This document shows, piece after piece, positions 1 through 39,231 of a stretch of 64,000 nucleotides of DNA. Source of the DNA: Streptococcus sp. (GTDB taxonomy: Bacteria > Bacillota > Bacilli > Lactobacillales > Streptococcaceae); contig JAUMZQ010000013.1 of the NCBI GenBank assembly GCA_030528055.1, positions 17,518 through 81,517 on the forward strand. Direction: 5' to 3'. The position numbers and the translations under genes are program-made. Every line of letters starts with the position of its first letter. Within the stretch, counting starts at the first letter, position 1. The notes beneath the pieces are model-generated. The model was not told the DNA's origin and ran no database searches. It was given only the letters and a program-made list of their open reading frames with translations.

Positions 1-3000
1 GGGAAGTTCGATCCGAAGGATTGTATAGCAATGCGGTTGATCAGGGAGATAGTTTTTTATATTCGCAAACAGAAGGAAAGAATTTTGTTTATTCAACAGA
101 TGTGACTTTTCTACAGGATAAAGGAGCTGCAGCTCTTGTTTTTCGTAGTGACAATAATCCAGATAATAAAAACAGCTATGCTGTGAATCTAGATGCTAGT
201 AGCAATAAAGTTAAATTCTGGAGATGGGATGGAAATCAAGATTATCAACTGATTGATGAAAAACAAATTGTAGCTACAAGTGATAAAAAATACCAATTAA
301 AAGTAGTTGCTATTGGATCATGGATTTCTTATTATGTCAATGATGTGTTAGTTGCAAGTACAGGAGACTATACACTTCAGAGGGAAGATAAGGGACAGAG
401 AACTTACCTTGATAAGGGTTATTTTGGACTTTTAAACTGGAATGGTGAAATGATTTTCCAGAACACTCATTATACAGCTATCGATGATAACAATACACCA
501 TTATTGAAAGATGTAACAGTGACTTCACCTGTGGGAACTGTTGAAAAAAAGGGGCAGTTTGTTCCAACGGAACCTATCACTATTCAATATGTTAAAAACG
601 ATGCCTCAAAGATTGATTTAAGTATTGTTAGTCAATCGAATAAGGCGAAAATTAGGGTTCAAGATGCGGAAGGCACTGTTTATGATGATTTAAAAAATAT
701 TCCATTGAAAGTAGGAGCCAATTACCTTGCAATTACCAGTCAAGTAACCACAGATGATGGGGAAGTAGCAACAGTAACTTATCGTATCAATGTTCACCGT
801 AGGCAAGCTGATGAAGTTTATTACAATGAACTGCATCGTAATCAATATCATTATTCTGTAAAAGATGGATGGGCTAACGATCCAAATGGTTTGGTATATT
901 ATAATGGTGTTTATCATCTATTCTATCAATTTTATGATGATAAAAAATGGGGACCAATGCACTGGGCTCACGCAACAAGCACTGATTTGTTGACTTGGGA
1001 GGAGCAACCGATTGCACTTTATCCAGATGCTAATGGTACGATGTTCTCGGGTTGTATCGTGGTTGATAATCAAAATACATCTGGTTTGTTTCCAAAGGGA
1101 ACGGGTGGATTAGTTGCGCTGATTACAGCAGATGGAAATGGTCAACGTATTAAACTAGCATATAGTACTGATGAGGGAAAAACATGGACGAAGTCGGATA
1201 AAGTTGTAGCTGACTGGAAAGATGATCCACTGCAATCACAAGATTTCAGAGATCCAAAAGTATTCCGTTGGGAAGATAAGTGGTTCATGGTGGTTGCTGG
1301 TGGACCAATGAGAATTTATTCTTCAACAAACCTACTGGACTGGACCGTAGAATCAACCTATGCCGATTTGCATACAGAATGTCCGGACCTATATCCGTTA
1401 CAAACAGCGGATGGCACTTTGAAATGGGTTCTCTCAAGAGGAGGTCGCCATTATAAAGTTGGGGACTTTAAACAAGTTGATGGGAAATGGACTTTTGTAG
1501 CAGATGAAGGGTATCAAACAACAGACGCCACGATGAATTTTGGTAAGGATTCTTATGCTGCAATGACCTATTATGTTCAGGATTTTGGCAGTAGTGCTCA
1601 TCCGACCATTCCAGAAATTGTCGAATTAAATTGGATGAATACTTGGGAGGATTACTGCAACCTTGTCGCTGAGAGAGTTGGACAAAATTTCAATGGAACT
1701 TTTAATCTTAACTTAAAACTGGGATTAGTAAATGATAATGGTAGATATGTGTTAACACAAAAACCAATTGAAGCTTATAAAAATCTACGAGACACGGAAA
1801 ATGCGATGACTTTCAAAGATGTTGAAATCACCCCGAATAATAATTTGCTATCAGGCTTCAAAGGCGATACTTATGAAATTGTATCGACATTTAGACCAAG
1901 TGAAAATACAAAGAAAATTGGATTCAATCTCCGTGTTGGTGATGGTGAAGTTACAAAAGTTATCTACGACTTGGAAACAGAGAAATTATCCATTGATAGA
2001 AGTCAGTCTGGCGTCATTTTGACGGATCAGTTTGCAGCGATTAATAGTCAGGCGGTAACACGGAATGCTGATGGCAGTATTGATTTGCATTTATATGTTG
2101 ATAAATCAAGTGTGGAGGTGTTTGCTAAAAACTACACTGTAGCTGGAGCTAACCAAATTTTCACTTCGCCGACTAGTTTAGGTTTGAGCACTTTGGTAGA
2201 AGGTGGTAGCACCAAAGCAGATATCGCTATCTATTCCATGAAGACCATATGGAAGAATAAGTTAACAGTCACAAAACCGCTTGAAGTAGTGCAAGCATCA
2301 GCGACTACGAATAATCTATATGTTGGAGACACGACAGAATTAAAAGCCTATGTGATGCCGGCAGAAGCTAGTCAAGACATTGTTTGGACAGTGAGCCAAC
2401 CAGATATTGTTGCCCTAAAGGGAACTGGGAATAAAGTATCTGTGACAGCACTGAAAAAAGGCAGTGTTACCATCTACGCGAGCTCTAAAGAAAATCCTTC
2501 TTTGGTGAAGTCCTTTACTGTTAACATTTTGGAAAATAATTTCCAAACGAATATTAAAGATTTAACAGCCCTTGCAGGGAATTGGTACATTGATGACAAA
2601 TCACTTTTGGATTCAAATACTAGTTCAAACGATTACTATATGACAAAAAATAAAGTCGAGTTTTCAGAATATGCTTTGGATTTAGACTTGAAATATAAAA
2701 AGGGTCTGATGAATATCTTTTTTGCATCCGAAAATAGTCAGCCAGCTTTCTCCTATGCTATTCAGTTTGGAGCTAACAATGTCATTAGACTTTACCGTTT
2801 CTTCGGAGATACTATTGCTGAAGCTAATATGAATAATCCCATAAATGATGATGTCTTTCATCATGTGAAAATTGTAAAAACAAAAACAGCTGTGAGTGTT
2901 TTGGTAGACGGTGTGGAATACTTGAAACACAATTTTGATCATGTAGAAGATTTTTATAACCATGCCCATGTTGGGCTTGGTCTATGGGATGGGGCACTTG

Positions 3001-3725
3001 AAGTTCAAAATTTCTTTATAACCAATCTTAATGAAGAAAAATCGCCTGAAGTTTTAAATGAGAAAAAAGAAATTATTGATCCCAAAACAGGTGTTCGAGT
3101 AATTCTGGATAAGGGGGAACTGGCTACAATCACTGATATTGGTGTTGAACATATAGAAACAAACCACATCAACACTCCATCTGTTTTAAAGAATAAAGAT
3201 TATGATCTCTTTGATATTGTTTTGAAAAATAAAGATGGTCAGAAATTAGCTAATCAAAAGGATGTCCTTGTAATTCTTCCAATTGATTTGGGTAAGGAAG
3301 TTGATAAGGTATTTTACCTTCCAAATTCTGATCAAGAAGAAGATTTGAAATTTATTCAAACTACAATCCTTGATGCGAATGGAAATCGTATGAATGCCGT
3401 TTCTTTTGTAGCGAAACATTTTAGTCAATATGGCATCGTCTATAAAACATCTGCTATTAAGGAAGATAACGCGAATACTACAAATAGTCATGACAATCAA
3501 AAAACAGTTTCTACACCTAATAGTAGCCATGTGAAAGAGACAGTACTTTCTACTGCTAGACATCAAACAAATTCAGCAGTGGGAAGATCAGAAAACAAAA
3601 CAACGTCTACTAACCAGCTTCCAGAAACTGGAGAAAACCGTTCTTATTTAACAATTGGTTTAGGTTTATTGGCATTTCTAAGTTCAATTAGTTTGATATT
3701 TAGAAGGAATACCAAAAAGCAATAA
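1..3725 (+). CDS. fruA: Cell-wall-anchored fructanase (GH32), 5' end cut by window edge
   Basis: Secreted beta-fructosidase that hydrolyses levan or inulin-type fructans and sucrose to fructose at the cell surface. The frame is open from base 3 with no stop, so the signal peptide and N-terminus lie upstream; the TTG at 21 is not a real start. Visible order, numbered from that TTG: a lectin-like accessory domain (about 1-155), the GH32 catalytic part (about 265-760) with the nucleophile motif WANDPNG (Asp about 287), the RDP motif, and the ECPDLYP motif carrying the acid/base Glu. Then come a BIG2-type Ig-like domain (about 770-840), a second lectin-like domain (about 845-995), a spacer and a sortase signal LPETGE with a hydrophobic segment and RRNTKKQ tail. 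S. mutans FruA is about 1,420 residues, so roughly 190 are missing here. The lev genes follow directly, which supports a fructan role. Confidence 0.93.
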   Translation, partial: EVRSEGLYSNAVDQGDSFLYSQTEGKNFVYSTDVTFLQDKGAAALVFRSDNNPDNKNSYAVNLDASSNKVKFWRWDGNQDYQLIDEKQIVATSDKKYQLKVVAIGSWISYYVNDVLVASTGDYTLQREDKGQRTYLDKGYFGLLNWNGEMIFQNTHYTAIDDNNTPLLKDVTVTSPVGTVEKKGQFVPTEPITIQYVKNDASKIDLSIVSQSNKAKIRVQDAEGTVYDDLKNIPLKVGANYLAITSQVTTDDGEVATVTYRINVHRRQADEVYYNELHRNQYHYSVKDGWANDPNGLVYYNGVYHLFYQFYDDKKWGPMHWAHATSTDLLTWEEQPIALYPDANGTMFSGCIVVDNQNTSGLFPKGTGGLVALITADGNGQRIKLAYSTDEGKTWTKSDKVVADWKDDPLQSQDFRDPKVFRWEDKWFMVVAGGPMRIYSSTNLLDWTVESTYADLHTECPDLYPLQTADGTLKWVLSRGGRHYKVGDFKQVDGKWTFVADEGYQTTDATMNFGKDSYAAMTYYVQDFGSSAHPTIPEIVELNWMNTWEDYCNLVAERVGQNFNGTFNLNLKLGLVNDNGRYVLTQKPIEAYKNLRDTENAMTFKDVEITPNNNLLSGFKGDTYEIVSTFRPSENTKKIGFNLRVGDGEVTKVIYDLETEKLSIDRSQSGVILTDQFAAINSQAVTRNADGSIDLHLYVDKSSVEVFAKNYTVAGANQIFTSPTSLGLSTLVEGGSTKADIAIYSMKTIWKNKLTVTKPLEVVQASATTNNLYVGDTTELKAYVMPAEASQDIVWTVSQPDIVALKGTGNKVSVTALKKGSVTIYASSKENPSLVKSFTVNILENNFQTNIKDLTALAGNWYIDDKSLLDSNTSSNDYYMTKNKVEFSEYALDLDLKYKKGLMNIFFASENSQPAFSYAIQFGANNVIRLYRFFGDTIAEANMNNPINDDVFHHVKIVKTKTAVSVLVDGVEYLKHNFDHVEDFYNHAHVGLGLWDGALEVQNFFITNLNEEKSPEVLNEKKEIIDPKTGVRVILDKGELATITDIGVEHIETNHINTPSVLKNKDYDLFDIVLKNKDGQKLANQKDVLVILPIDLGKEVDKVFYLPNSDQEEDLKFIQTTILDANGNRMNAVSFVAKHFSQYGIVYKTSAIKEDNANTTNSHDNQKTVSTPNSSHVKETVLSTARHQTNSAVGRSENKTTSTNQLPETGENRSYLTIGLGLLAFLSSISLIFRRNTKKQ

Positions 3726-22779: not shown

Positions 22780-23676
22780 ATGGTAAAACGATTTATTAGT
22801 TCCAATACATCAGAAATTTTAGGAATGACTGCTACAGAACTAAAGCAGAGTATTCGAGCGAGTGAAGGGCGAGTGATCTTGTCTGAAAATGTTGCTTTTA
22901 AAGAATCTTATATAGGAGATGTAACCAATGCTGAAATTGCTAGGGCGTTTGGGGCAGATTTGATTTTGTTAAATGGTATGGATATTCTGCATCCTTTTGT
23001 GGCTGGTATTGAAGCTACAGAGAATTTTGTAGAAGAATTGCATCGCTTAGTAGGACGTCCGATTGGTATCAATTTAGAACCCATTGATAGTCGGGCAGAC
23101 ATGGCAGAGGAACGCCAAACTATTAACGAAGGCCGTCAAGCTAGCCTGGAAACGATTTGCCGTGCTCAAGAGTTAGGTGTTGATTTTATTTGCTTAACTG
23201 GAAATCCAGGAACAGGAGTAACGAATCAAGCCATTATTGATACAATCCATCTAGTGAAAAAATATTTTTCAGGCTTATTGATCGCGGGTAAAATGCATGC
23301 TGCAGGTGTGGACGAAGCAGTGGTTGATTTAGAGGCTATTTCTTCATTTGTTGAAGCTGGCGTGGATGTTGTTTTAGCTCCAGCAGTCGGCAGTGTTCCA
23401 GGATTTGATAAAGAAGATTTGAAACAAATTGTCCAATTAGCTCATAAAAAAGGTGCATTAGTTATGAGTGCAATTGGTACGAGTCAAGAAAGTGCTGATG
23501 AGGATACAGTTAAACAAATGGCTATTCGCAATAAAATCTGCGGTGTTGATATTCAGCACATTGGAGATTCGGGATATGGCTGTTTAGCACCGGTGGAAAA
23601 TATCTTTGCTATGAGTAAAGCTCTTAGAGGACAACGTCATACCATTTCGATGATTTCACGTTCTATCAATAGATAA
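22780..23676 (+). CDS. TIM-barrel protein of unknown function (PEP phosphonomutase-like / DUF7916 type)
   Basis: 298 residues with a repeating beta-alpha pattern: RVILSENVAFKESYIGDVTNAEIARAFGADLILLNGMD, GRPIGINLEPI, DFICLTGNPGTGV, GLLIAGKMHAAGVD, DVVLAPAVGSVPGF, ALVMSAIGTSQES, IQHIGDSGYG. This matches my memory of a family sometimes labelled PEP phosphonomutase-like and often found beside sugar PTS genes; the reaction is not known to me. The flanking repeat suggests it was once next to the ROK repressor gene, and so part of the beta-galactoside region. Confidence 0.6.
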   Translation: MVKRFISSNTSEILGMTATELKQSIRASEGRVILSENVAFKESYIGDVTNAEIARAFGADLILLNGMDILHPFVAGIEATENFVEELHRLVGRPIGINLEPIDSRADMAEERQTINEGRQASLETICRAQELGVDFICLTGNPGTGVTNQAIIDTIHLVKKYFSGLLIAGKMHAAGVDEAVVDLEAISSFVEAGVDVVLAPAVGSVPGFDKEDLKQIVQLAHKKGALVMSAIGTSQESADEDTVKQMAIRNKICGVDIQHIGDSGYGCLAPVENIFAMSKALRGQRHTISMISRSINR

Positions 23677-23748
23677 AAAAGAAGCAGGAAACAAAGATGT
23701 TACACCTTGTATCCTGCTTTTTATTATTCAAAATTAGTGGTTAGAATT
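23671..23748. repeat. Direct repeat, left copy (terminator plus vestigial ROK 3' end)
   Basis: About 75 bp matching 25294-25368 at most positions. It starts at the last codon of the 22780 gene, includes the terminator hairpin, and on the minus strand carries a relic of the ROK C-terminus (TTNFE-stop, against TTSFE-stop in the right copy). It ends at the stop codon of the AraC-type gene. Confidence 0.8.
23682..23722. terminator. Terminator after the 22780 gene
   Basis: AAGCAGGA/TCCTGCTT stem extended by ACAA/TTGT, with T residues after it. Also serves the AraC-type gene coming from the other side. Confidence 0.8.
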
Positions 23749-24550
23749 AGTTTTCTCTCATAAGTTTAACTATCAAATTCGGTAAATTGATTAAGATTGG
23801 AGGATCTTCAGGTATTGCTTCCCTTAATAAAATGTTAAATTCCTTTTTTTCTTTATAGTTTATTGGAAATGTAATCTGTTCTTCAACTTTTCCCCTCAAA
23901 CAATCTTTCAAATCAAAATATCTAAAGATTTTACTATTTTTTTCTACAGAACATGCCAAAATATAGTAACTTCCGTCAGGAACATTGAGGAAAGTGCATT
24001 GATTTCCTGTTTTCCAAGGAATAACAGCTTTTCCTACTATCGGTGCATGATTTGGCACAGGCGTCCTAAATAATCCTACAAAGGTCACATCGCTTTTATA
24101 ATTCTTGGGATAAGTTAAGATTATGGTACATCTATTTTTATTTTCTTTTTCCTCATACTCGTGATATGTTTTTGTTAATAACTCCTCGTTTTTTTTATAT
24201 TTATTTAAAATATTATATAATTTTTCAATATTTTTTTTGTATTCTTTGGGAGAAAGTCCAGTATTTTTCTTGAATATATTAGAGAAAGAACCTGAACTTT
24301 CATATCCCGATTCTAATTGTGCAAAAATAACACTTTTACGTTCTTTTACAAGTTTCTGTATAGATTTTTCCAATTTCAGAATCGATATGAATTCTTTAGC
24401 TGAAAATCCCATTTCTTTTTTAAATTTTCTACTAAATTCATATTTGCTATATCCAAATTTTTCAGCAGTATCAGCTATAGAAACTTTTTCCATTTCTTCT
24501 TCATTTTCTAATTTTTTTCTGATATATTCAGCAATAACCTTTATATTCAT
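23747..24550 (-). CDS. AraC-type transcriptional regulator
   Basis: 267 residues with the DNA-binding part at the N-terminus: two helix-turn-helix units, VSIADTAEKFGYSKYEFSRKFKKEMGFS and VIFAQLESGYESSGSFSNIFKKNTGLSPKEYKK (about 22-110). A C-terminal domain follows (about 135-260) whose GxYYILAC-like and acidic strands suggest a small effector-binding fold, though no family is certain. It is more AT-rich than its neighbours. Divergent from the SRPBCC gene, which it may control. It lies inside the repeat-flanked insertion. Confidence 0.8.
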   Translation of the reverse strand: MNIKVIAEYIRKKLENEEEMEKVSIADTAEKFGYSKYEFSRKFKKEMGFSAKEFISILKLEKSIQKLVKERKSVIFAQLESGYESSGSFSNIFKKNTGLSPKEYKKNIEKLYNILNKYKKNEELLTKTYHEYEEKENKNRCTIILTYPKNYKSDVTFVGLFRTPVPNHAPIVGKAVIPWKTGNQCTFLNVPDGSYYILACSVEKNSKIFRYFDLKDCLRGKVEEQITFPINYKEKKEFNILLREAIPEDPPILINLPNLIVKLMREN

Positions 24551-24709
24551 TATTTTATATAAATCTCCGTATTACTTTTTATATTTTAATTGTATTATTT
24601 TAACATATTAAATTGAAAATGCAATTCATGATAAGATTTTTCTTTTTTTCTATTGTATATTTAGTTACATGAGAAAATATCTTAATATTATGTTTAAAGG
24701 AGCGCTAAA

Positions 24710-25141
24710 ATGAATAAGATAATTTACGTTGAAAAGACACTGAACTGTTCTGTAAAAGAAGCATTTCAACTATTTTCAGATAAAGAAGAGGCAAAGTGGA
24801 TGACTTGCCTTGATGCAAATATTGACAATTTTGTTGGAGGAAAATATGAACTTTTCTGGAATTTGGAAAATAAGGAAAAAGATTCAACTTTGGGATGTAA
24901 GATTCTTGCTTACAAACCTGATGAATTTATTGCTTTTGAGTGGAAAGGTCCATCAGATTTAAAAATTATGAATGATGCTAATCCTTTGACGGTTGTTTCA
25001 GTATCTTTTATTCCTATTGGGGATAAAACACGAATTCATCTTTTTAATAGTGGTTGGGGAGATTCTCCTGAATGGGACAATGCAAGAGAATATTTCAGTA
25101 AAATATGGAATAGGCTTTTTGAATCTTTAGTTTTTATATAA
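24710..25141 (+). CDS. SRPBCC / AHSA1-like domain protein
   Basis: 143-residue single-domain protein with the START/SRPBCC pattern: YVEKTLNCSVKEAFQLFSDKEEAKWM, GGKYELFW, ILAYKPDEFIAFEWKGP, VVSVSFIPIGDKTRIHLFNSGWGDSPEWDNAREYFSKIW. Such proteins have a deep ligand pocket; the ligand here is unknown. AAAGGAGCGC precedes the ATG. It is paired with the divergent AraC-type gene and both lie between the two direct repeats, so the pair probably arrived together. Confidence 0.78.
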   Translation: MNKIIYVEKTLNCSVKEAFQLFSDKEEAKWMTCLDANIDNFVGGKYELFWNLENKEKDSTLGCKILAYKPDEFIAFEWKGPSDLKIMNDANPLTVVSVSFIPIGDKTRIHLFNSGWGDSPEWDNAREYFSKIWNRLFESLVFI

Positions 25142-25293
25142 TAAACATTGCGTAGAATGGTACAAAAATATATTTTAACCTGAAGAAGAAATAAAAGAAT
25201 GTAATAATACCCAGATTCAGAAAGGTAAAGTAACAACTAATATTTTTGAGAATCATCACTTCTTATAAATAAAAAAATAAATTAATTTTCATA

Positions 25294-25368
25294 AGATAAA
25301 AAAGAGGCAGGAAACAAAGATTTTACACTTTGTTTCCTGCTTTTTATTCAAAACTAGTAGTTAGAAAT
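25294..25368. repeat. Direct repeat, right copy (terminator plus real ROK 3' end)
   Basis: Near-identical to 23671-23748, with about six substitutions, a 3-bp gap and a 1-bp gap. Here the matching segment runs into the true C-terminal codons of the ROK gene. About 1.5 kb lies between the copies. Confidence 0.8.
25305..25346. terminator. Bidirectional terminator between the SRPBCC and ROK genes
   Basis: Perfect 13-bp stem GCAGGAAACAAAG/CTTTGTTTCCTGC (25307-25319 and 25328-25340) followed by five Ts. Confidence 0.85.
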
Positions 25369-26537
25369 TCGTGATAGATACACAAGCTAACAGCAGCTCT
25401 GGCAATATTTAGGTTAGAAAATGGTTTGATAATAATATCTACATGCTTCTGATTTGGAAAGAGCGGGACAGCTTGTTCTAGTTGAGTTAGGATTTGCTTG
25501 GCAATAATTGGTAGTGAGAAAAATTCACCATCTAGATAAATTCGTTCAGTATCTACTAGCTGACAGAGATTCGAAATGGAAATAGCTAAATATTTACAAG
25601 CTGTATGAATAAGCTCCATACAGGCGATGTCTCCCAACTGATAGGCTGCTAGCAGTGTATCAAGAGTGATGTCTTTTGGATCTGCAACTAAAGTTTTTAA
25701 TAATGAAACCTGTGAAGATTTGTAAAGAATCGTTGCTTTTTGGATAAGTGCTCCTTCACTAGAATAAACCTGCAAACAACCGTTTTTTCCACAACTACAA
25801 GCTTCTCCTTCTGGATGAATAACGGTATGCCCGACTTCACCAATCAAAAAATTGTTTTGGCTATAAATTTGCCCTCGATACATATAAGAACAGTGGATCC
25901 CTCTAGCCACATGGTAAACAATAAAATTGCTATCGCTTGAATGATAATTAAATAAGCGTTCTGACAAGGTTAAGCAATGAGATTTGTTTCCAAAATAAAC
26001 AGGAATATCAAAAGCTCTCTGGATTCGCTGCAAATCAATTTCCTTCCAATTAGGATTGTTAGAAATAATTTCAGATGTTTCAGAGAAATTGACATGTCCA
26101 GCAATGGCAATGGCGATAGAGGAAATGGAGTATTGTTGATTTTTTATTAAAAATTGCTTTATTATCTGGATAATTTTTGTGTCTGTTGGACCACCGTGTT
26201 GTTCAATATTGCAGTCTTGACAGTCACTATCTAAAATATCTCCTACATTATCGACAATAGCTATAGATAGGTATTTTTCGGAGATTTCAAATCCTAAATA
26301 ATAACGTTGGCGAGGAGCAATATCTAGCAGGGTTTTTTTACGCCCAACGCTATCATCGTCTAATTCTCCAAGTTCTCTAACAAAATTCTCCCTAATTAAT
26401 TCATTGACAATATTTCCAGTAGTGGCAGGAGTGATATTTGTATATTTAGAAATATCAATACGCGAGAGAGGTCTCTTAGCATAGAGTTGGTCTAGAATGG
26501 TTGCTCGCAGTTCTGCCTGTTTTTTGGTTAGTACCAT
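25344..26537 (-). CDS. ROK-family transcriptional repressor (NagC/XylR type)
   Basis: 397 residues: an N-terminal winged helix-turn-helix (RATILDQLYAKRPLSRIDISKYTNITPATTGNIVNELI) and a ROK sugar-kinase-like domain with the Zn-binding motif CSCGKNGCLQ (about 246-255). It is divergent from the Lac-family PTS genes and probably represses them and itself through the perfect palindrome at 26575-26593. The inducer is presumably a sugar from the imported beta-galactoside, an inference from the neighbours. Confidence 0.9.
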   Translation of the reverse strand: MVLTKKQAELRATILDQLYAKRPLSRIDISKYTNITPATTGNIVNELIRENFVRELGELDDDSVGRKKTLLDIAPRQRYYLGFEISEKYLSIAIVDNVGDILDSDCQDCNIEQHGGPTDTKIIQIIKQFLIKNQQYSISSIAIAIAGHVNFSETSEIISNNPNWKEIDLQRIQRAFDIPVYFGNKSHCLTLSERLFNYHSSDSNFIVYHVARGIHCSYMYRGQIYSQNNFLIGEVGHTVIHPEGEACSCGKNGCLQVYSSEGALIQKATILYKSSQVSLLKTLVADPKDITLDTLLAAYQLGDIACMELIHTACKYLAISISNLCQLVDTERIYLDGEFFSLPIIAKQILTQLEQAVPLFPNQKHVDIIIKPFSNLNIARAAVSLCIYHEFLTTSFE

Positions 26538-26593: not shown

Positions 26594-26606
26594 GTAAGCG
26601 TTGACA
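26593..26606 (+). promoter_or_regulatory. Catabolite-responsive element (cre)
   Basis: TGTAAGCGTTGACA fits the Gram-positive cre consensus for CcpA. It overlaps the -35 hexamer of the PTS promoter, a position that represses. Confidence 0.8.
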
Positions 26607-26629
26607 TTTCTTTTTCTTTTCTATATAAT
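26601..26629 (+). promoter_or_regulatory. Consensus promoter of the beta-galactoside operon
   Basis: TTGACA (26601-26606), 17-bp spacer, TATAAT (26624-26629): both hexamers are perfect. A leader of about 95 bases runs to the EIIB start. Confidence 0.85.
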
Positions 26630-26732: not shown

Positions 26733-27053
26733 GTGGTGAAAAAACAAATTATGCTAGTCTGTGCTGCAGGTATGAGTACCAGTTTGATGGTGAATAAAAT
26801 GCAGAAATCAGCAAGTGAACGTGCTATTGAAGCCGATATTTTTGCAATTCCTGTTGCAGAAGCAGATGACTATTTGGAAACACACCAAGTGAGTGTTGTT
26901 TTACTAGGACCACAGGTACGTTATCTTTTGAAGGGATTTGAAGAAAAATTAGCTCCATCAGGAACACCTGTAGATGTCATTCCGATGACCGATTACGGCA
27001 TGATGAAAGGCGATAAGGTGCTAGATTTAGCCAATACACTCATACAGGAATGA
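26733..27053 (+). CDS. PTS Lac-family (cellobiose/lactose type) EIIB
   Basis: Small cytoplasmic EIIB of 106 residues with the phosphorylated Cys in MLVCAAGMSTSLMV and the family end DYGMMKGDKVLDLA. GTG 26733 lies 6 bp after AGGAGA; the in-frame ATG at 26727 is too close to that site to use it. First gene of an operon with EIIC, GH35 beta-galactosidase, aldo/keto reductase and perhaps the LPXTG gene. No EIIA gene is seen in the operon. Confidence 0.88.
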   Translation: MVKKQIMLVCAAGMSTSLMVNKMQKSASERAIEADIFAIPVAEADDYLETHQVSVVLLGPQVRYLLKGFEEKLAPSGTPVDVIPMTDYGMMKGDKVLDLANTLIQE

Positions 27054-27070
27054 TTTGAAAATAGCTGTTA

Positions 27071-27097
27071 ACTAGTAAATACGATGGGATTACTAGT
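27071..27097 (+). promoter_or_regulatory. Intercistronic stem-loop between EIIB and EIIC genes
   Basis: ACTAGTAA/TTACTAGT perfect 8-bp arms with an 11-base loop and no T run after it. In a 173-bp gap that also holds AAGGAGGAAAGAG (27117-27129) with no start codon at a workable distance. Perhaps an mRNA processing or stability site. Confidence 0.35.
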
Positions 27098-27226
27098 ACC
27101 ATAAAAGCTAGATAGTAAGGAGGAAAGAGAAACTTTTACTACGGAACAATTGCTAAAAAGTATTATTTCTAAGAATTTAGTAAGATACTTGACTTGTATA
27201 CCATTAGAAAATAAGGAGATACTATT

Positions 27227-28585
27227 GTGAGTAATTTTATTGATAAATGGCAAGCTAGATTAATGCCTATTGCAAATCGTGTTGGGAATCAGAAGTTTCT
27301 AGTTGCTTTAAGAGATTCATTTATTGGTACAATGCCGGTCATTATGACAGGTTCATTTGCTTTGATGTTAAATGCTTTCTTTTCAGATTTACCAGGACAA
27401 TTTGGTTGGACTTGGATACCAAATACCTTTCAATGGTTAATTGATATAAATTGGTTGGTCTTTAAAGGTAGTATTCCAATCGTTGTTTTGTTATTCTTGT
27501 TTACATACGGTGTGAATATTGCAAAAATTTATAAAGCAGATGAAGTTTCAGCAGGCTTAGTTGCTGTTGCTTCCTATGTTATTACAATCGGAGGTTCTAT
27601 TACTAAAACTTTCGAAGTTTCTGATAAATCGAATGCTTTAGGTAAAATTGTCGGAAAACTTCCTGAGTTTAAGGTGGCTGGAAATAACCTCTCTGTCACA
27701 CTTAATGGAGTAATTCCAGGAGACCAAATTAGTGCAAGAGGCTATTTTACTGCGATTATTATTGGTTTGATATCTGTTATTATCTTTTGTAAAGTAATGA
27801 ATAAGAATTGGACAATTAAGTTACCTGATTCAGTTCCACCAGCTATTATGAAACCATTTTTATCAATTATTCCGGCAGCAGTTGCCATGTATGTTATTGG
27901 TATTGTGACTTATTTATTTAATAAAGTGACTGGAGAAATATTAATTGATTGGATTTACAAAGTATTACAAGCACCATTACTTCATTTATCACAAGGTTTC
28001 TGGGCAGTTCTATTAATTGTTTTTCTTAATAAAGTTTTCTGGTTTTTTGGTCTTCATGGTGGAAATGTGTTAGCACCTGTTATGTCAAGTTTGTTTGGTG
28101 TTACAATGCTGGCTAATTTGGAAGCTTATCAAGCAGGTCATGCAATTCCTTATATGTGGACTGATAATTCATTTGGTGCATTTGTTTGGTTTGATGCTAT
28201 CGGTGTTGCAATTGCTATTTTATGGCAATCAAGAAGTAAGCATTTAAGAGAAGTTGCTAAACTAGGCATTTTCCCAATGATATTTAACATCGGTGAACCA
28301 GTCATGTATGGTCTTCCAATAGTTTTAAATCCGCTTATGTTGATTCCATTTATTTTGACACCTATGGTAATGGTAACAGTTGCTTATTTTGCAACGACAT
28401 TTGGACTAGTTGCTCCAGTTACTCAAAATGTTGCTTGGGTGATGCCACCAATCCTTTACGGTTTCTTCGCTACAGCCTTTGACTGGCGCGCGATTATTTT
28501 GTCTATTATTAATATTGCTATCTCTACCTTTATTTACTTACCATTTGTTAAAATAGCAAGTAAACAGGAGGAACTAACACAATGA
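27227..28585 (+). CDS. PTS Lac-family EIIC permease
   Basis: Membrane permease of 452 residues with many hydrophobic segments and the EIIC motifs FIGTMPVIMTGSFALMLNAF, WFFGLHGGNVLAPVM, FNIGEPVMYGLPIVLNP. GTG start with AAGGAGATACTATT before it. It overlaps the beta-galactosidase start by 4 bp (ATGA). Together with EIIB it likely imports and phosphorylates a beta-linked disaccharide or oligosaccharide. The substrate is inferred from the GH35 partner. Confidence 0.92.
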   Translation: MSNFIDKWQARLMPIANRVGNQKFLVALRDSFIGTMPVIMTGSFALMLNAFFSDLPGQFGWTWIPNTFQWLIDINWLVFKGSIPIVVLLFLFTYGVNIAKIYKADEVSAGLVAVASYVITIGGSITKTFEVSDKSNALGKIVGKLPEFKVAGNNLSVTLNGVIPGDQISARGYFTAIIIGLISVIIFCKVMNKNWTIKLPDSVPPAIMKPFLSIIPAAVAMYVIGIVTYLFNKVTGEILIDWIYKVLQAPLLHLSQGFWAVLLIVFLNKVFWFFGLHGGNVLAPVMSSLFGVTMLANLEAYQAGHAIPYMWTDNSFGAFVWFDAIGVAIAILWQSRSKHLREVAKLGIFPMIFNIGEPVMYGLPIVLNPLMLIPFILTPMVMVTVAYFATTFGLVAPVTQNVAWVMPPILYGFFATAFDWRAIILSIINIAISTFIYLPFVKIASKQEELTQ

Positions 28586-32958: not shown

Positions 32959-35460
32959 ATGACTTACTATAATCACAAGGAAATTGAACCCAAGTGGCAA
33001 AAATATTGGGCAAAAAACCATACTTTTAAAACAGGAACAGATCAAGAAAAACCAAATTTTTATGCTCTAGACATGTTCCCTTATCCTTCTGGGGCAGGTC
33101 TTCATGTGGGGCATCCAGAGGGTTATACTGCAACAGATATTTTGAGTCGTTACAAACGTGCTCAAGGTTTTAATGTGTTACATCCTATGGGGTGGGATGC
33201 TTTTGGTTTGCCAGCAGAACAATATGCAATGGATACAGGAAATGATCCAGCTGACTTTACCGCAGAAAATATCGCTAACTTTAAACGCCAAATCAACTCA
33301 CTAGGTTTTTCGTATGATTGGGAACGAGAACTCAATACAACTGACCCAAATTACTACAAATGGACTCAATGGATTTTCACTAAATTGTATGAAAAAGGCT
33401 TGGCTTATGAAGCTGAAGTGCCAGTTAACTGGGTGGAAGAGTTGGGAACGGCTATTGCCAATGAGGAAGTGTTGCCAGATGGAACTTCGGAGCGTGGTGG
33501 TTATCCTGTTATCCGCAAACCGATGCGTCAATGGATGTTAAAAATTACAGCTTATGCAGAACGTTTGCTTAATGATCTTGAAGATTTGGATTGGCCAGAA
33601 TCTATTAAGGATATGCAACGGAACTGGATTGGGAAATCAACAGGTGCTAATGTAACATTCAAAGTAAAAGGAACGGATAAAGAATTCACCGTTTTTACCA
33701 CTCGACCAGACACACTTTTTGGAGCAACTTTTGCGGTATTAGCTCCAGAACATGCTCTTGTTGATTCAATTACAAGTCCTGAACAACAGCAGATTGTTGC
33801 AGATTATAAGAGACAGGCTTCCCTTAAGTCAGATTTAGCACGTACAGATTTAGCCAAAGAAAAAACAGGTGTATGGACAGGGGCCTATGCTATTAATCCT
33901 GTAAATGGGAAAGAAATTCCAATTTGGATTGCAGACTATGTACTAGCTAGTTATGGAACAGGTGCAGTAATGGCTGTTCCAGCTCATGACCAACGTGACT
34001 GGGAATTTGCTAAGCAGTTTGATTTGCCAATCATTCCAGTTTTAAAAGGTGGTAATATAGAAGAAGCTGCCTATACAGAAGATGGCATCCATATCAACTC
34101 AGATTTTCTAGATTGTCTTGACAAAGAAGAAGCTATTGCAAAAATGATTGCTTGGTTAGAGGATAACAATTGTGGGCAAGAAAAAATCACCTACCGTCTG
34201 AGAGACTGGTTGTTCAGTCGCCAACGTTATTGGGGAGAACCTATTCCGATTATTCATTGGGAAGATGGGACTTCAACAGTTATTCCTGAAGAGAATCTAC
34301 CACTAGTGTTACCTGTAACCAAAGATATTCGTCCATCGGGGACTGGAGAGAGCCCTCTAGCGAACTTGGAGGATTGGCTTGAGGTTACAAGAGAAGATGG
34401 CGTAAAGGGACGCCGTGAAACCAATACCATGCCACAATGGGCAGGCTCTAGTTGGTATTATCTTCGTTATATTGATCCACATAATAAGGAAAAATTAGCG
34501 GACGAGGAACTATTGAAGGCTTGGCTACCAGTTGATGTTTATATCGGTGGTGCTGAACATGCCGTTCTTCACCTTCTTTATGCACGTTTCTGGCATAAGT
34601 TCCTCTATGATTTGGGAATTGTACCGACAACAGAACCCTTCCAAAAATTATTTAATCAAGGGATGATTTTGGGAACTAGTTACCGTGATCATCGTGGGGC
34701 ACTTGTTGCTACGGATAAAGTAGAAAAACGAGATGGTTCATTCTTCCATATTGAAACAGGTGAAGAGTTGGAACAAGCACCTGCAAAAATGTCTAAATCA
34801 CTCAAAAATGTTGTCAATCCTGATGATGTAGTGGAGCAATACGGGGCGGATACACTTCGTATTTATGAGATGTTCATGGGACCATTAGATGCTTCCATTG
34901 CTTGGTCGGAAGAAGGGCTAGAAGGAAGCCGAAAATTTCTTGATCGCGTATATCGTCTGTTACAATCTAAAGATATTGTCAAGGAAAACGATGGACACTT
35001 AGACAAGGTATACCATCAAACTGTTAAATTGGTGACCGAACAGATTGAGGAACTTCGGTTTAATACAGCGATTGCTCAATTGATGGTCTTTGTCAATGCT
35101 GCTAATAAAGAAGAACATTTGTACATAGAATATGCAAAAGGCTTCATCCAATTACTTGCTCCATTTGCACCTCATTTGTCAGAAGAATTGTGGCAGCAAC
35201 TTACTCAAGATGGTCAGACTATTTCTTATGTAAAATGGCCGACTTATGATGAAACAAAGCTGATTGAAGATGATGTTGAAATTGTTGTTCAAATAAAAGG
35301 AAAAGTTCGTGCGAAACTTGTGGTTGCTAAAGATTTATCAAAAGAAGAATTGCAAGAACTTGCCCTTAAAAATGAGAAAATCCAATCCGAACTAATAGGA
35401 AAAGAGGTTGTAAAAGTCATCGCAGTTCCTAATAAATTGGTAAATATTGTTATAAAATAA
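32959..35460 (+). CDS. leuS: Leucyl-tRNA synthetase
   Basis: Class I synthetase charging tRNA-Leu, 833 residues, the usual length. The ATP-binding HIGH-type motif is [13 protein letters not shown] (about 42-54), the editing domain sits at about 225-420 ([25 protein letters not shown]), and KMSKS at about 610. The ATG at 32959 follows TTGGAGA; the in-frame TTG at 32947 lies in that site. Monocistronic. Confidence 0.97.
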
Positions 35461-35466
35461 TGACTA

Positions 35467-35540
35467 AAACATCTCCATAATAGAGATGTTTCAGTCCTAA
35501 GAAAGCCCATAGAATTCATTTTCTAAGGGCTTTTCTTTCT
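35467..35540 (+). terminator. Tandem hairpins after leuS
   Basis: First hairpin AAACATCTC/GAGATGTTT (35467-35491) has no T run. A second, AGAAAGCCC with GGGCTTTTCT (35500-35536), has a T-rich tail and is the likelier terminator. Confidence 0.65.
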
Positions 35541-35691
35541 ATTTAGAGGTATAATAGATGTTTTAGTTAATGGAAATTTGTAAGATGAGAATCTACTCAG
35601 AGATCTTATAATTGCTATTCCTACTTGTATTATATATAATATACGAATAGATAAAGGAAGTTTCGACTGACATTTAGTACAAAGGAGTAAT

Positions 35692-36654
35692 ATGAAAAAA
35701 ATTAAATACAGGTATTTGGTATTGATTGTTTTGAGCCTTTTGATTGCTTCGATCGCTCTAATACTACCTCATGTAAATAAAGACAAAAAAAGTTCTGAAA
35801 CAACAGCTAAAAAAACAGTTGTTTCTTCATCAAGTAGTGTCTCTGAATCATCATCTCAATCTTCCTCCACTGTTCAAGTACAATCACCGTCTTCTGAAGT
35901 TGTAAAGGAAGAATTTTCCATTGATAATGGTGGGAAGTCTATTTATGGTTATTATACCGCTCCTAAAAATTACAAAGAGATAAATCTTCCGACGATCGTA
36001 TTTGCACATGGTTTCAATGGAAGTGCGGAATTTGGAGATGCTTATGCTCAACATTTTGCAAAAGAAGGATACATTGTTTATAGTTTTGATTTTTCAGGTG
36101 GTAGCCCTAGAAGTAGAAGTGATGGCAGTATTTATGAGATGTCTGTATTCACGGAAGAAGCAGAATTAACAACTATCGTTCAAACCTTACAAAAACAAAG
36201 TTTCGTGGATAAAAACAACATCTATTTATTAGGGAATAGCCAAGGTGGAGTTGTCTCTATCATGACAGCTGCTCATTTGGGGAATGAGATAGCAGGTGTA
36301 TTTCTAACAAATCCAGCCTTTGTTTTATTTGATGATGCTAAGAGTTTGTTTTCATCTGTTGATGAAATCCCTGAACGTTATAACCATAAGGGAAATATGG
36401 TAGGAAAGGTTTATTTTGAAAAATCACTGGACTACAATATTGAAGATACATACAAAAAAGTGACGAGTCCAGTTTTGATTATTCAAGGTGATAGTGATGA
36501 GATTGTTCCTCTCTCTTATGCAAAGGATGCTGAAAAATTATTAGTAAAAGGTCAGTTGCATGTCATTTCAGGAGCTGGACACATGTTGAATTCTCAAGAG
36601 AATAATGAAGCGATGCAAACGATAGATACCTTTTTGGCAAATTTAAAAAAGTGA
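35692..36654 (+). CDS. Membrane-anchored alpha/beta hydrolase
   Basis: 320 residues: an N-terminal hydrophobic anchor (about 7-25), a Ser-rich linker (about 35-70) and an alpha/beta-hydrolase domain facing outward. The catalytic set is visible: the oxyanion region FAHGFNGSAE, nucleophile Ser in LLGNSQGGV (about 183), Asp in IQGDSDEIVP and His in GAGHML. Esterase or peptidase; the substrate cannot be named. AAAGGAGTAAT precedes the ATG. Monocistronic. Confidence 0.85.
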   Translation: MKKIKYRYLVLIVLSLLIASIALILPHVNKDKKSSETTAKKTVVSSSSSVSESSSQSSSTVQVQSPSSEVVKEEFSIDNGGKSIYGYYTAPKNYKEINLPTIVFAHGFNGSAEFGDAYAQHFAKEGYIVYSFDFSGGSPRSRSDGSIYEMSVFTEEAELTTIVQTLQKQSFVDKNNIYLLGNSQGGVVSIMTAAHLGNEIAGVFLTNPAFVLFDDAKSLFSSVDEIPERYNHKGNMVGKVYFEKSLDYNIEDTYKKVTSPVLIIQGDSDEIVPLSYAKDAEKLLVKGQLHVISGAGHMLNSQENNEAMQTIDTFLANLKK

Positions 36655-36736
36655 TAGAATAATTATATAAGCTAAGTGTCCGTCAGTTAGAGAATAAATA
36701 CAATAGAGTAGGACAAAAGGTAGTAATATAAAGAAA

Positions 36737-36763
36737 AAAACATGTTCATCACATGTTTTTTTT
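36737..36763. terminator. Bidirectional terminator between the hydrolase and VTT genes
   Basis: AAAACATGT/ACATGTTTT stem with TCATC loop, A-rich before and T-rich after. Confidence 0.85.
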
Positions 36764-36766
36764 GAA

Positions 36767-37390
36767 CTACTGGAATGCTTTCCAAAAAAAGTCAATAATG
36801 TAAGTCAATCCGTAAGTATAAACGATAAGAGTGAATGGTTTACATAGTACAATGATTGTAATATAACGTTTAAACGACATTTTAGTTAGCGCTGCTAACA
36901 TACAGAGAAAATCAGCAGGGCTGATTGGCCAAATCATCATAAAGATAAAGAAACGATCAAAACGGTCTCCTTTATCTAGCCAAGTGATATATTTATTGTA
37001 GGTTTTTTTACTGACAACGGATTGAACAAAAGCAGGACCATAAGTTCGAGACAAGTAAAAAATAATAATACAACCAATGACGATACCGACGTAATTATAA
37101 ATTGTTCCAACGATATGACCATAAATATAAACTCCTGCAACAGAAGTGAGAGCTCCTGGAATAATAGGAACGACAGTTTGTAAAATTTGTAAAAAGATAA
37201 ACAGTGGCGGTCCCCAAAAACCAGCTTGTTGAATAAAGGCAGAAAGTGTTTCTTTGGATTTTAAGATACCAGCATAGTAAGCCCAGATACAAAAAAGAAT
37301 AGTAGCTACAGCACCAATGATAGATGACCAGTTGATTATTTTTTGAAGAAGCGGAGAAACAGTTGTCATTTGTTTATTTTTTTCAGACAT
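36767..37390 (-). CDS. TVP38/TMEM64 (VTT/DedA-type) membrane protein
   Basis: 207 residues, about five or six hydrophobic segments, with the VTT signature around ILQTVVPIIPGALTSVAGVYIYGHIVGTIYNYVGIVIGC and the GDRFDRFFIFMMIWPISPADFLCMLAA region. Relatives take part in lipid scrambling or transport in the membrane. TAGGGAG precedes the ATG. Divergent from yqeG. Confidence 0.88.
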   Translation of the reverse strand: MSEKNKQMTTVSPLLQKIINWSSIIGAVATILFCIWAYYAGILKSKETLSAFIQQAGFWGPPLFIFLQILQTVVPIIPGALTSVAGVYIYGHIVGTIYNYVGIVIGCIIIFYLSRTYGPAFVQSVVSKKTYNKYITWLDKGDRFDRFFIFMMIWPISPADFLCMLAALTKMSFKRYITIIVLCKPFTLIVYTYGLTYIIDFFWKAFQ

Positions 37391-37556
37391 AAAAACTCCC
37401 TAATCTATAAAATCTAATTTTCATTGTAACATATTTTCATTATTTTGTAAGAATACAGAAAATGATGCATCATATTCTATAATATCATACCAATCATGAG
37501 CAATGAAATATTACTCTATTGATAACAAGATCAGATGTGCGAAATCTACGCTTTTA

Positions 37557-37565
37557 TGCTATAAT
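37557..37565 (+). promoter_or_regulatory. Promoter of the yqeG operon (extended -10)
   Basis: TGCTATAAT, hexamer 37560-37565. Transcription would begin near 37572, so upstream in-frame starts of yqeG are ruled out and the GTG at 37594 is preferred. Confidence 0.65.
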
Positions 37566-37593
37566 GATGAGAATACAATTTTTGGAGAAGAAT

Positions 37594-38121
37594 GTGGTAC
37601 TTGAAGATTATATACCTGATTTTGCGATTGAAGCAGCCTATGATTTAACCGTAGAAAGTTTGAAAAAACATAAAATTAAAGCTGTTTTAGTGGATTTAGA
37701 TAATACCTTGATTGCTTGGAATAATCCTGATGGGACACCGGAGATGAAACAGTGGCTTCACGATTTACAAGATGCAGGTATTCGAGTGATTGTCGTATCG
37801 AATAATACTAAAACACGTGTCAAGCGTGCAGTGGAAAAGTTTGAAATTGATTATGTCTACTGGTCTATGAAACCATTTACCTTTGGAATTAATCGAGCAT
37901 TGAAACAATTTCATTTTAAGAAAAATGAAGTTGTCATGGTGGGAGACCAACTGATGACGGATATTCGTGCGGCACATCGTGCAGGCATTCGTTCCATTTT
38001 AGTAAAGCCATTGGTAGAACATGATTCAATCAAAACCAAGTTAAACCGTATGCGTGAGCGTCAGGTGATGAAAAAAATCACTGAAAAATACGGCTCGATC
38101 AAGTATACAAAAGGAATTTAA
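37594..38121 (+). CDS. yqeG: YqeG-family HAD-IIIA phosphatase
   Basis: 175-residue HAD phosphatase with motif I VLVDLDNTLIAWN (about 30) and motif IV VMVGDQLMTDIRAA (about 113). GTG 37594 after TTTGGAGAAG, giving the family's usual N-terminus (VLEDYIPDFAIEAAYDL). It starts a conserved run of ribosome and cofactor genes and is followed by yqeH after 3 bp. Confidence 0.9.
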   Translation: MVLEDYIPDFAIEAAYDLTVESLKKHKIKAVLVDLDNTLIAWNNPDGTPEMKQWLHDLQDAGIRVIVVSNNTKTRVKRAVEKFEIDYVYWSMKPFTFGINRALKQFHFKKNEVVMVGDQLMTDIRAAHRAGIRSILVKPLVEHDSIKTKLNRMRERQVMKKITEKYGSIKYTKGI

Positions 38122-38124
38122 TCA

Positions 38125-39231
38125 ATGGAAGCAATTTTCTGTATTGGTTGTGGAGCGACAATTCAAACCAAGAATCAATCCAAGTTAGGTTTCACGCCTC
38201 AGTCTGCCCTAGATAAAGGTTTGGAATCAGGAGAAATTTATTGTCAACGTTGTTTTCGCCTTCGTCATTACAATGAGATAACAGATGTTCACTTGACAGA
38301 TGCCGACTTTTTGAAATTATTACATGAAGTGGGAGATAGTTCGGCATTAGTTGTTAATGTAGTAGATATTTTTGACTTCAATGGTTCAATAATTCCTAAT
38401 CTTCCTCGCTTTGTATCTGGTAATGATGTACTACTTGTGGGGAATAAAAAAGATATTTTACCTAAATCGGTTAAGGATAAAAAGGTTACACAATGGTTGA
38501 TGGAAAGAGCTCATGAAGAAGGTCTCAGACCAATAGATGTGTTGTTGACTTCTGCACAAAATAAGCAAGCTATCAAAGAACTGATTGAAAAAATAGAATA
38601 TTATCGAAAAGGGCGTGATGTTTACGTAGTTGGCGTGACAAATGTAGGGAAATCTACTTTGATTAATGCGATTATTCAAGAAATCACTGGAAATAAAGAG
38701 CTCATCACAACCTCTCGTTTTCCGGGAACTACCTTAGATAAGATTGAAATTCCGCTTGCTGATGGCAACTATATCTACGATACTCCAGGAATTATTCATC
38801 GCTACCAAATGGCACACTACTTATCACCTAAAGCCTTGAAATATGTGAGTCCTAAAAAAGAGATAAAACCCAAAACATACCAGTTGAATGCTGAACAAAC
38901 TCTCTTTTTGTCAGGGTTAGGACGTTTTGATTTTGTATCTGGAGCATCTCAAGGTTTCACAGCGTACTTTGATAATGAATTGAAGCTTCATCGAACAAAA
39001 CTAGAAGGAGCCACCGACTTCTATCAAAAACATGTGGGAAGCTTGCTGACTCCTCCATTTGCTGGAGAAGTAGAAGCATTCCCCAAACTAGTCAAACATG
39101 AATTCAATATAAAAGAAAAAACAGATGTGGTATATTCAGGCTTGGGATGGATACGAGTGAGCGGAGTAGCAAAGATTGTTGCTTGGGCACCAGAAGGAGT
39201 GGCTGTTGTAACGCGCAAAGCTATTATCTAA
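38125..39231 (+). CDS. yqeH: Ribosome biogenesis GTPase YqeH
   Basis: Circularly permuted GTPase for small-subunit maturation, 368 residues. A Zn finger (CIGCGATIQ...YCQRC, about 5-49) comes first, then G4 (NKKD) before G1 (GVTNVGKSTLIN, about 170) and G3 (DTPG, about 218), the permuted order. A C-terminal domain follows. Tightly linked to yqeG. Confidence 0.96.
   Translation: MEAIFCIGCGATIQTKNQSKLGFTPQSALDKGLESGEIYCQRCFRLRHYNEITDVHLTDADFLKLLHEVGDSSALVVNVVDIFDFNGSIIPNLPRFVSGNDVLLVGNKKDILPKSVKDKKVTQWLMERAHEEGLRPIDVLLTSAQNKQAIKELIEKIEYYRKGRDVYVVGVTNVGKSTLINAIIQEITGNKELITTSRFPGTTLDKIEIPLADGNYIYDTPGIIHRYQMAHYLSPKALKYVSPKKEIKPKTYQLNAEQTLFLSGLGRFDFVSGASQGFTAYFDNELKLHRTKLEGATDFYQKHVGSLLTPPFAGEVEAFPKLVKHEFNIKEKTDVVYSGLGWIRVSGVAKIVAWAPEGVAVVTRKAII

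Follow-up and report, generated by a model that had tools for sequence, protein, structure and literature searches.

How did a divergent gene pair, encoding an AraC-type regulator and an SRPBCC-family protein, come to lie between two convergent Streptococcus genes whose junction is present on both sides of it? The locus was studied within a window of 64,000 nucleotides, the whole stretch of DNA that was analysed. The pair is very probably a lineage-specific acquisition between the convergent DUF7916 and ROK genes, and the locus as a whole is probably best explained by a recent acquisition of this kind that was accompanied by duplication of the junction.

The duplicated junction and the inserted pair

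The AraC/SRPBCC pair is flanked by two direct copies of a junction repeat (Table 1), confirming the two bracketing copies of about 75 bp noticed in a first-pass annotation. When the left copy was locally aligned with the right one, 67 of 73 columns were identical (92%) and one gap of 3 nt was needed, for a score of 107; dinucleotide shuffles (n = 500) scored 20.0 on average (sd 2.7, maximum 35). The span originally given for the arrangement, 23671 to 25368, holds at its left edge; its right edge belongs at about 25366, the end of the right repeat. An ungapped repeat finder returned 60 nt at 90% identity starting from 23666/25289, plus 26 nt at 88%, and detected no second family of direct repeats of at least 40 nt within 8 kb in the 64-kb window. 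The repeat comprises the gap between the convergent DUF7916 and ROK genes together with the 3' end of the ROK gene. A search of the organism's own assembly (2.12 Mb, 30 contigs) did not yield a third strong copy. The next matches were the two hairpins again, this time on the opposite strand (E 6.6e-4 and 0.0012), and the remaining ones had E values of 0.009 or worse. The annotation had raised the prospect of the same repeat occurring at many unrelated loci; the assembly search returned no such dispersed copies.

Table 1. Features of the locus, in window coordinates.
Feature	Position	Strand	Evidence or description
DUF7916 gene (the TIM-barrel gene of the first-pass annotation), left neighbour	22780..23676	+	Pfam PF25509, E 1.1e-128
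Left junction copy	23671..23746		Bidirectional terminator-like hairpin; ROK 3'-end relic on minus strand
AraC-type regulator gene, 267 aa	23747..24550	-	PF12833, E 2.3e-17; PF00165, E 2.1e-14
Divergent intergenic region common to both acquired genes	24551..24709		159 bp between start codons
SRPBCC/AHSA1-family gene, 143 aa, divergent from AraC	24710..25141	+	PF08327, E 2.2e-11
AT-rich 147-bp remnant, part of insert	25142..25288		Between SRPBCC gene and right copy
Right junction copy	25294..25366		Bidirectional terminator-like hairpin, uninterrupted stem; runs into ROK 3' end
ROK-family repressor gene, right neighbour	25344..26537	-	PF00480, E 2.3e-34

The left copy also carries the relic of the ROK C-terminus (TTNFE-stop) that had been described there. 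Its minus strand reads L-I-L-T-T-N-F-E-stop, and the true ROK gene ends in C-I-Y-H-E-F-L-T-T-S-F-E-stop; LTTNFE-stop thus matches LTTSFE-stop of the real end in the ROK frame, which argues that the left copy originally adjoined ROK. In the right copy, a faint trace of the DUF7916 end (IFIR-stop versus RSINR-stop) shares R-stop with the gene and is too short to carry weight. Both copies fold into strong hairpins on both strands, at -17.3 (plus) and -19.0 (minus) kcal/mol for the left copy (z -4.6 and -5.4) and -24.9 (plus) and -20.4 (minus) kcal/mol for the right (z -7.1 and -6.4); 0 of 200 shuffles folded as well in any of the four cases. T-rich DNA follows the hairpin on both strands of both copies. 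A consensus scan listed a terminator for one of these alone, the minus strand of the right copy, and the hairpins are putative terminators. The stem is unbroken in the right copy and contains broken pairs in the left, which suggests decay of the left copy.

The stop codon of the AraC gene abuts the left copy. The C-terminus of the protein looks complete, as 10 of the 14 aligned homologues end within 2 columns of it; the other four run 10-11 columns further. In the SRPBCC protein the PF08327 domain spans residues 13-140 (44.5 bits against a cut-off of 22.1). In the remnant behind this gene the longest open stretch over six frames is 40 codons, on the minus strand. Its plus-strand stretch of 29 codons (25179-25265) had no Pfam match and one weak match in plasmids (E 0.6), and no convincing relative of the remnant DNA was found among 284 genomes of the genus. 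The remnant is perhaps the rest of the donor DNA. Three open reading frames of 80 aa or more lie between the repeats: the AraC gene, the SRPBCC gene and one antisense to AraC. No integrase, transposase or resolvase is among them. Single-sequence structure predictions of the two proteins were poor (pLDDT 44.5 for SRPBCC and 48.0 for AraC). In a search of solved structures the AraC profile was matched in its helix-turn-helix part only, and the best E value for SRPBCC was 0.086; a library of defence systems gave no match below E 0.06.

The inserted part had been described as more AT-rich, and the insert between 23747 and 25288 has a GC content of 27.0%. Among 56 mechanical open reading frames of at least 120 codons (mean GC 35.9%, sd 2.8), the AraC gene is the lowest at 27.5% and the SRPBCC gene the third lowest at 31.2%. 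The codon use that was to be compared alongside is not unusual: after amino-acid correction it is 0.188 for AraC and 0.229 for SRPBCC against a mean of 0.172 (sd 0.037). This weakens any case built on composition, and a low GC content by itself is poor evidence of acquisition.

The same junction in related genomes

The DUF7916 gene with its 3' flank was used as a query against 284 genomes of the genus, the own genome included. It matched 55 others. In 15 of them the match spans the entire gene, with a DNA identity of 74-78%, and the 40 more distant or partial matches were set aside before the junctions were counted; the 14 set-aside loci that were read (L030-L043) have no convergent ROK gene directly downstream. 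The ROK protein (E up to 1e-80) found relatives in 33 other genomes, with identities of 69-72% in 14, 64% in one genome (G118) and 39-49% in 18. The last 18 were left out as probable paralogues because the own genome holds a second such locus on another contig (C13). At 34968-38415 that contig bears a second DUF7916 gene (68% DNA identity) near PTS genes and another ROK gene, whose protein is 40% identical. We found no mention of DUF7916 in the literature searched.

In all 14 genomes with a close ROK relative, the DUF7916 and ROK genes are convergent and adjacent with no insert between them, which supports at the species level the earlier claim that the two genes were once neighbours. The stop-to-stop gaps at these empty sites measure 86-91 bp in 11 genomes, 34-35 bp in two and 9 bp in one. 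The DUF7916 gene of these relatives is 76-78% identical in DNA and 82-88% in protein; the DNA alignments end at the gene end or within 12 nt of it, and the intergenic DNA of the relatives did not align to either junction copy. The best internal direct repeats at the 14 empty sites score 13-20, compared with 107 here, so none of them shows the two repeats whose presence in strains lacking the pair would have spoken against the original reading. The single shared terminator that had been expected at such sites fared less well: inspection by eye, alongside computed folds, points to one hairpin in three of the 14 only, and to two different hairpins in tandem in 11. Judged from the likeness of the junctions, which puts eleven genomes in one group and three in another, the empty-site evidence comes from about two lineages.

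The junction copies are 92% alike, whereas the DUF7916 DNA of the relatives is 76-78% identical. Barring gene conversion that kept the copies similar, this makes it probable that the junction was duplicated after the lineage had separated from all the relatives sampled.

Beyond the junction, the gene order DUF7916-ROK-IIB-IIA-IIC-GH35 was seen in four of five loci fetched at length (L154, L155, L156 and L158). In G118 the order is ROK, IIB, IIA, IIC, GH35, aldo/keto reductase, DUF7916; this rearranged genome has no bearing on the junction and stands outside the count of 14. The PTS operon beside the ROK gene of the window has no IIA gene, IIB ending at 27053 and IIC starting at 27227. A IIA gene occupies that position in all five relatives fetched at length (PF02255 in the one scanned), and tblastn found no IIA remnant in the 173-nt gap (27054-27226). 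The divergent region between ROK and IIB contains a 12/12 match to a sigma-70 promoter directed toward the PTS operon (26601-26629), in a scan whose total number of matches was near that of shuffles.

Relatives and possible sources of the two proteins

Relatives of the AraC protein were present in 31 other genomes of the genus (E up to 1e-20) and in 19 of 294 other genomes of the order (E up to 1e-40). We read 48 of their loci, namely 29 of 32 other places from the genus search and 19 of 22 from the order search. In 45 of the 48 (L056-L082 and L092-L109) a co-directional VOC-type match begins no more than 400 nt downstream, accompanied in 25 of those 45 by a TfoX-type gene; these assignments come from Pfam scans of representatives. 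In two further loci, L083 and L084, a TfoX-type gene precedes another open reading frame, which in L083 matches a glyoxalase/VOC profile, and the remaining one (L110) has neither type of gene beside the AraC relative. A match to SRPBCC was found near none of the 48.

At E up to 1e-8 the SRPBCC protein has relatives in four of 283 other genomes of the genus, with 47% identity and at other sites, and among 239 genomes of the phylum it was found in the own genome and in one other at 32%. The two of these SRPBCC loci that were read, L086 and L089, have no AraC-type gene beside the SRPBCC relative. Since this holds on both sides, with SRPBCC absent from all 48 AraC loci, the pairing of AraC with SRPBCC, as judged from gene neighbourhoods, is unusual among the genomes searched. 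In L089 (14-1941) the 47% relative lies just downstream of an RNA-uracil-methyltransferase-like gene (PF05958). In L086 (1480-3214) two similar methyltransferase C-terminal tails stand in a row beside the relative (2298-2603 and 2921-3214), and this doubled tail is reminiscent of an integration site at which a gene end has been duplicated.

The arrangement can be compared with the AraC loci of the Lactobacillales, where related regulators (33-45% identity over the whole length) also stand beside a gene for a small protein of VOC/PhnB type. There the VOC-type gene is co-directional and directly downstream, whereas here the small protein is of the SRPBCC/AHSA1 family and its gene is divergent. 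Small-molecule binding is common among proteins of the VOC and SRPBCC folds, which suggests a ligand-responsive regulator paired with a small binding protein; the AraC-type protein would respond to a small molecule and control the divergent SRPBCC gene.

A donor was sought in several collections. Plasmids gave 274 records for the AraC protein, all below 60% identity (41.4% being the best among the 20 of 274 listed), and five for the SRPBCC protein, the best at 33.8% and with 52-57% of the query covered. Phages gave 10 records for AraC, none covering 80% of it, and the matches listed fall within its first 108 residues. Viral contigs contained no relative of either protein and no instance of the exact repeat pattern, and the DNA between 23640 and 25420 had no match in plasmids or phages. 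Among named genomes the donor search returned one Lachnospiraceae locus at 27%. DNA from 24551 to 25300 matched 89 of the 284 genus genomes (own included; E up to 0.01), mostly over stretches of 20-65 bases that we judged to be chance and rejected; the exceptions are pieces at 72% in the four genomes known from the SRPBCC protein search.

Route of entry, alternatives and meaning

The empty sites, the doubled junction and the ROK relic support the first-pass proposal of an entry of the pair accompanied by a doubling of the junction, and we infer that both happened in the same event. The incoming DNA would have carried, or been joined to, a copy of the DUF7916-ROK junction, and a single homologous exchange at the resident junction (insertion-duplication) would have left one copy on each side of the pair. 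The donor may have been circular or concatenated, with recombination confined to a single site; natural transformation is one setting in which this could occur. We consider the chances evenly balanced that the duplication arose by this insertion-duplication route. After such an entry the left hairpin would receive the DUF7916 and AraC transcripts and the right hairpin those of SRPBCC and ROK, an orderly arrangement for transcription.

In Campbell-type insertion-duplication the added DNA is bounded by direct copies of the pairing sequence and no transposase is needed, as would be the case here. An identity of about 75 bp is short for efficient single-crossover integration. A ComEC/Rec2-type family protein (PF03772) is present; it lends weak support, being found in 10 of 14 named control genomes, Escherichia coli included. 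Transformation in Streptococcus pneumoniae is reported to produce merodiploids with repeat-bounded duplications; those are large, tandem and bordered by insertion-sequence copies, whereas here about 75 bp are duplicated around a foreign pair of 1.5 kb (PMC3784515). In homology-facilitated illegitimate recombination foreign DNA is anchored by one-sided homology, as it may have been here, but the abstract describing it gives no hint that the junction would end up on each side of the insert (PMC3240628). Ordinary codon use, the lack of a donor in the searches above, the failure of the relatives' intergenic DNA to align and a consensus terminator match confined to the minus strand of the right copy count against acquisition with duplication of the junction.

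Four other accounts were weighed. It is unlikely that the pair arrived on a mobile element that integrates site-specifically between long repeats of the attachment type and has since lost its integrase. Integrases leave a recreated gene end on one side and a truncated relic on the other, as seen here, and the doubled methyltransferase tail beside the 47% SRPBCC relative in L086 and the 147-bp remnant, for which no convincing relative was found, would fit as well. Yet no integrase, transposase or resolvase is encoded among the frames of 80 aa or more that the repeats enclose, and the repeat, found once on each side, turned up nowhere else in the assembly and in no phage, plasmid or viral contig; comparable junctions, empty in 14 of 14, give no sign of a hot spot. 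An insertion sequence or transposon does not fit in repeat length or gene content: such elements make target duplications of 2-14 bp and have terminal inverted repeats and a transposase, compared with a repeat of 73-76 bp and no transposase among the same frames.

Rather unlikely, too, is a tandem duplication of the junction that came first, the foreign pair entering later between the copies in an unrelated event. This would require two events, and none of the 14 relatives shows a tandem junction duplication, even though the outer edges of the repeats lie in or at gene ends, as could result from a small tandem duplication, and the inner edge of the left copy coincides with the AraC stop codon.

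That the pair and its repeats are ancestral, and that in the 14 relatives the repeats recombined, removing the pair and restoring a single junction, is very improbable. Deletion between direct repeats would give exactly the empty site seen; however, more than one loss would be required, the pair is AT-rich, and repeats at 92% are too alike beside neighbour-gene DNA at 76-78%, unless gene conversion has acted. A chance resemblance or a dispersed terminator-like family can practically be dismissed: terminators do resemble each other in AT-rich genomes, but the score of 107 far exceeds the shuffle maximum of 35, the similarity takes in the ROK end besides the hairpin, and neither the assembly nor the window yielded a further strong copy.

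Acquisition with duplication of the junction thus remains the preferred reading, and the locus is a clean, ordinary gene gain of a kind already known. We think it quite improbable that bidirectional terminators between convergent genes are preferred docking sites for gene pairs that bring a second copy of the terminator; were this true, the acquisition would have been insulated on landing and the locus would be one example of a general route. A new question would arise only if the pattern recurs at many convergent junctions. The locus keeps a legible record of gene gain in the empty sites of relatives, the doubled junction and the gene-end relic, and it illustrates how a convergent junction can take in new genes without depriving either resident gene of its predicted terminator.
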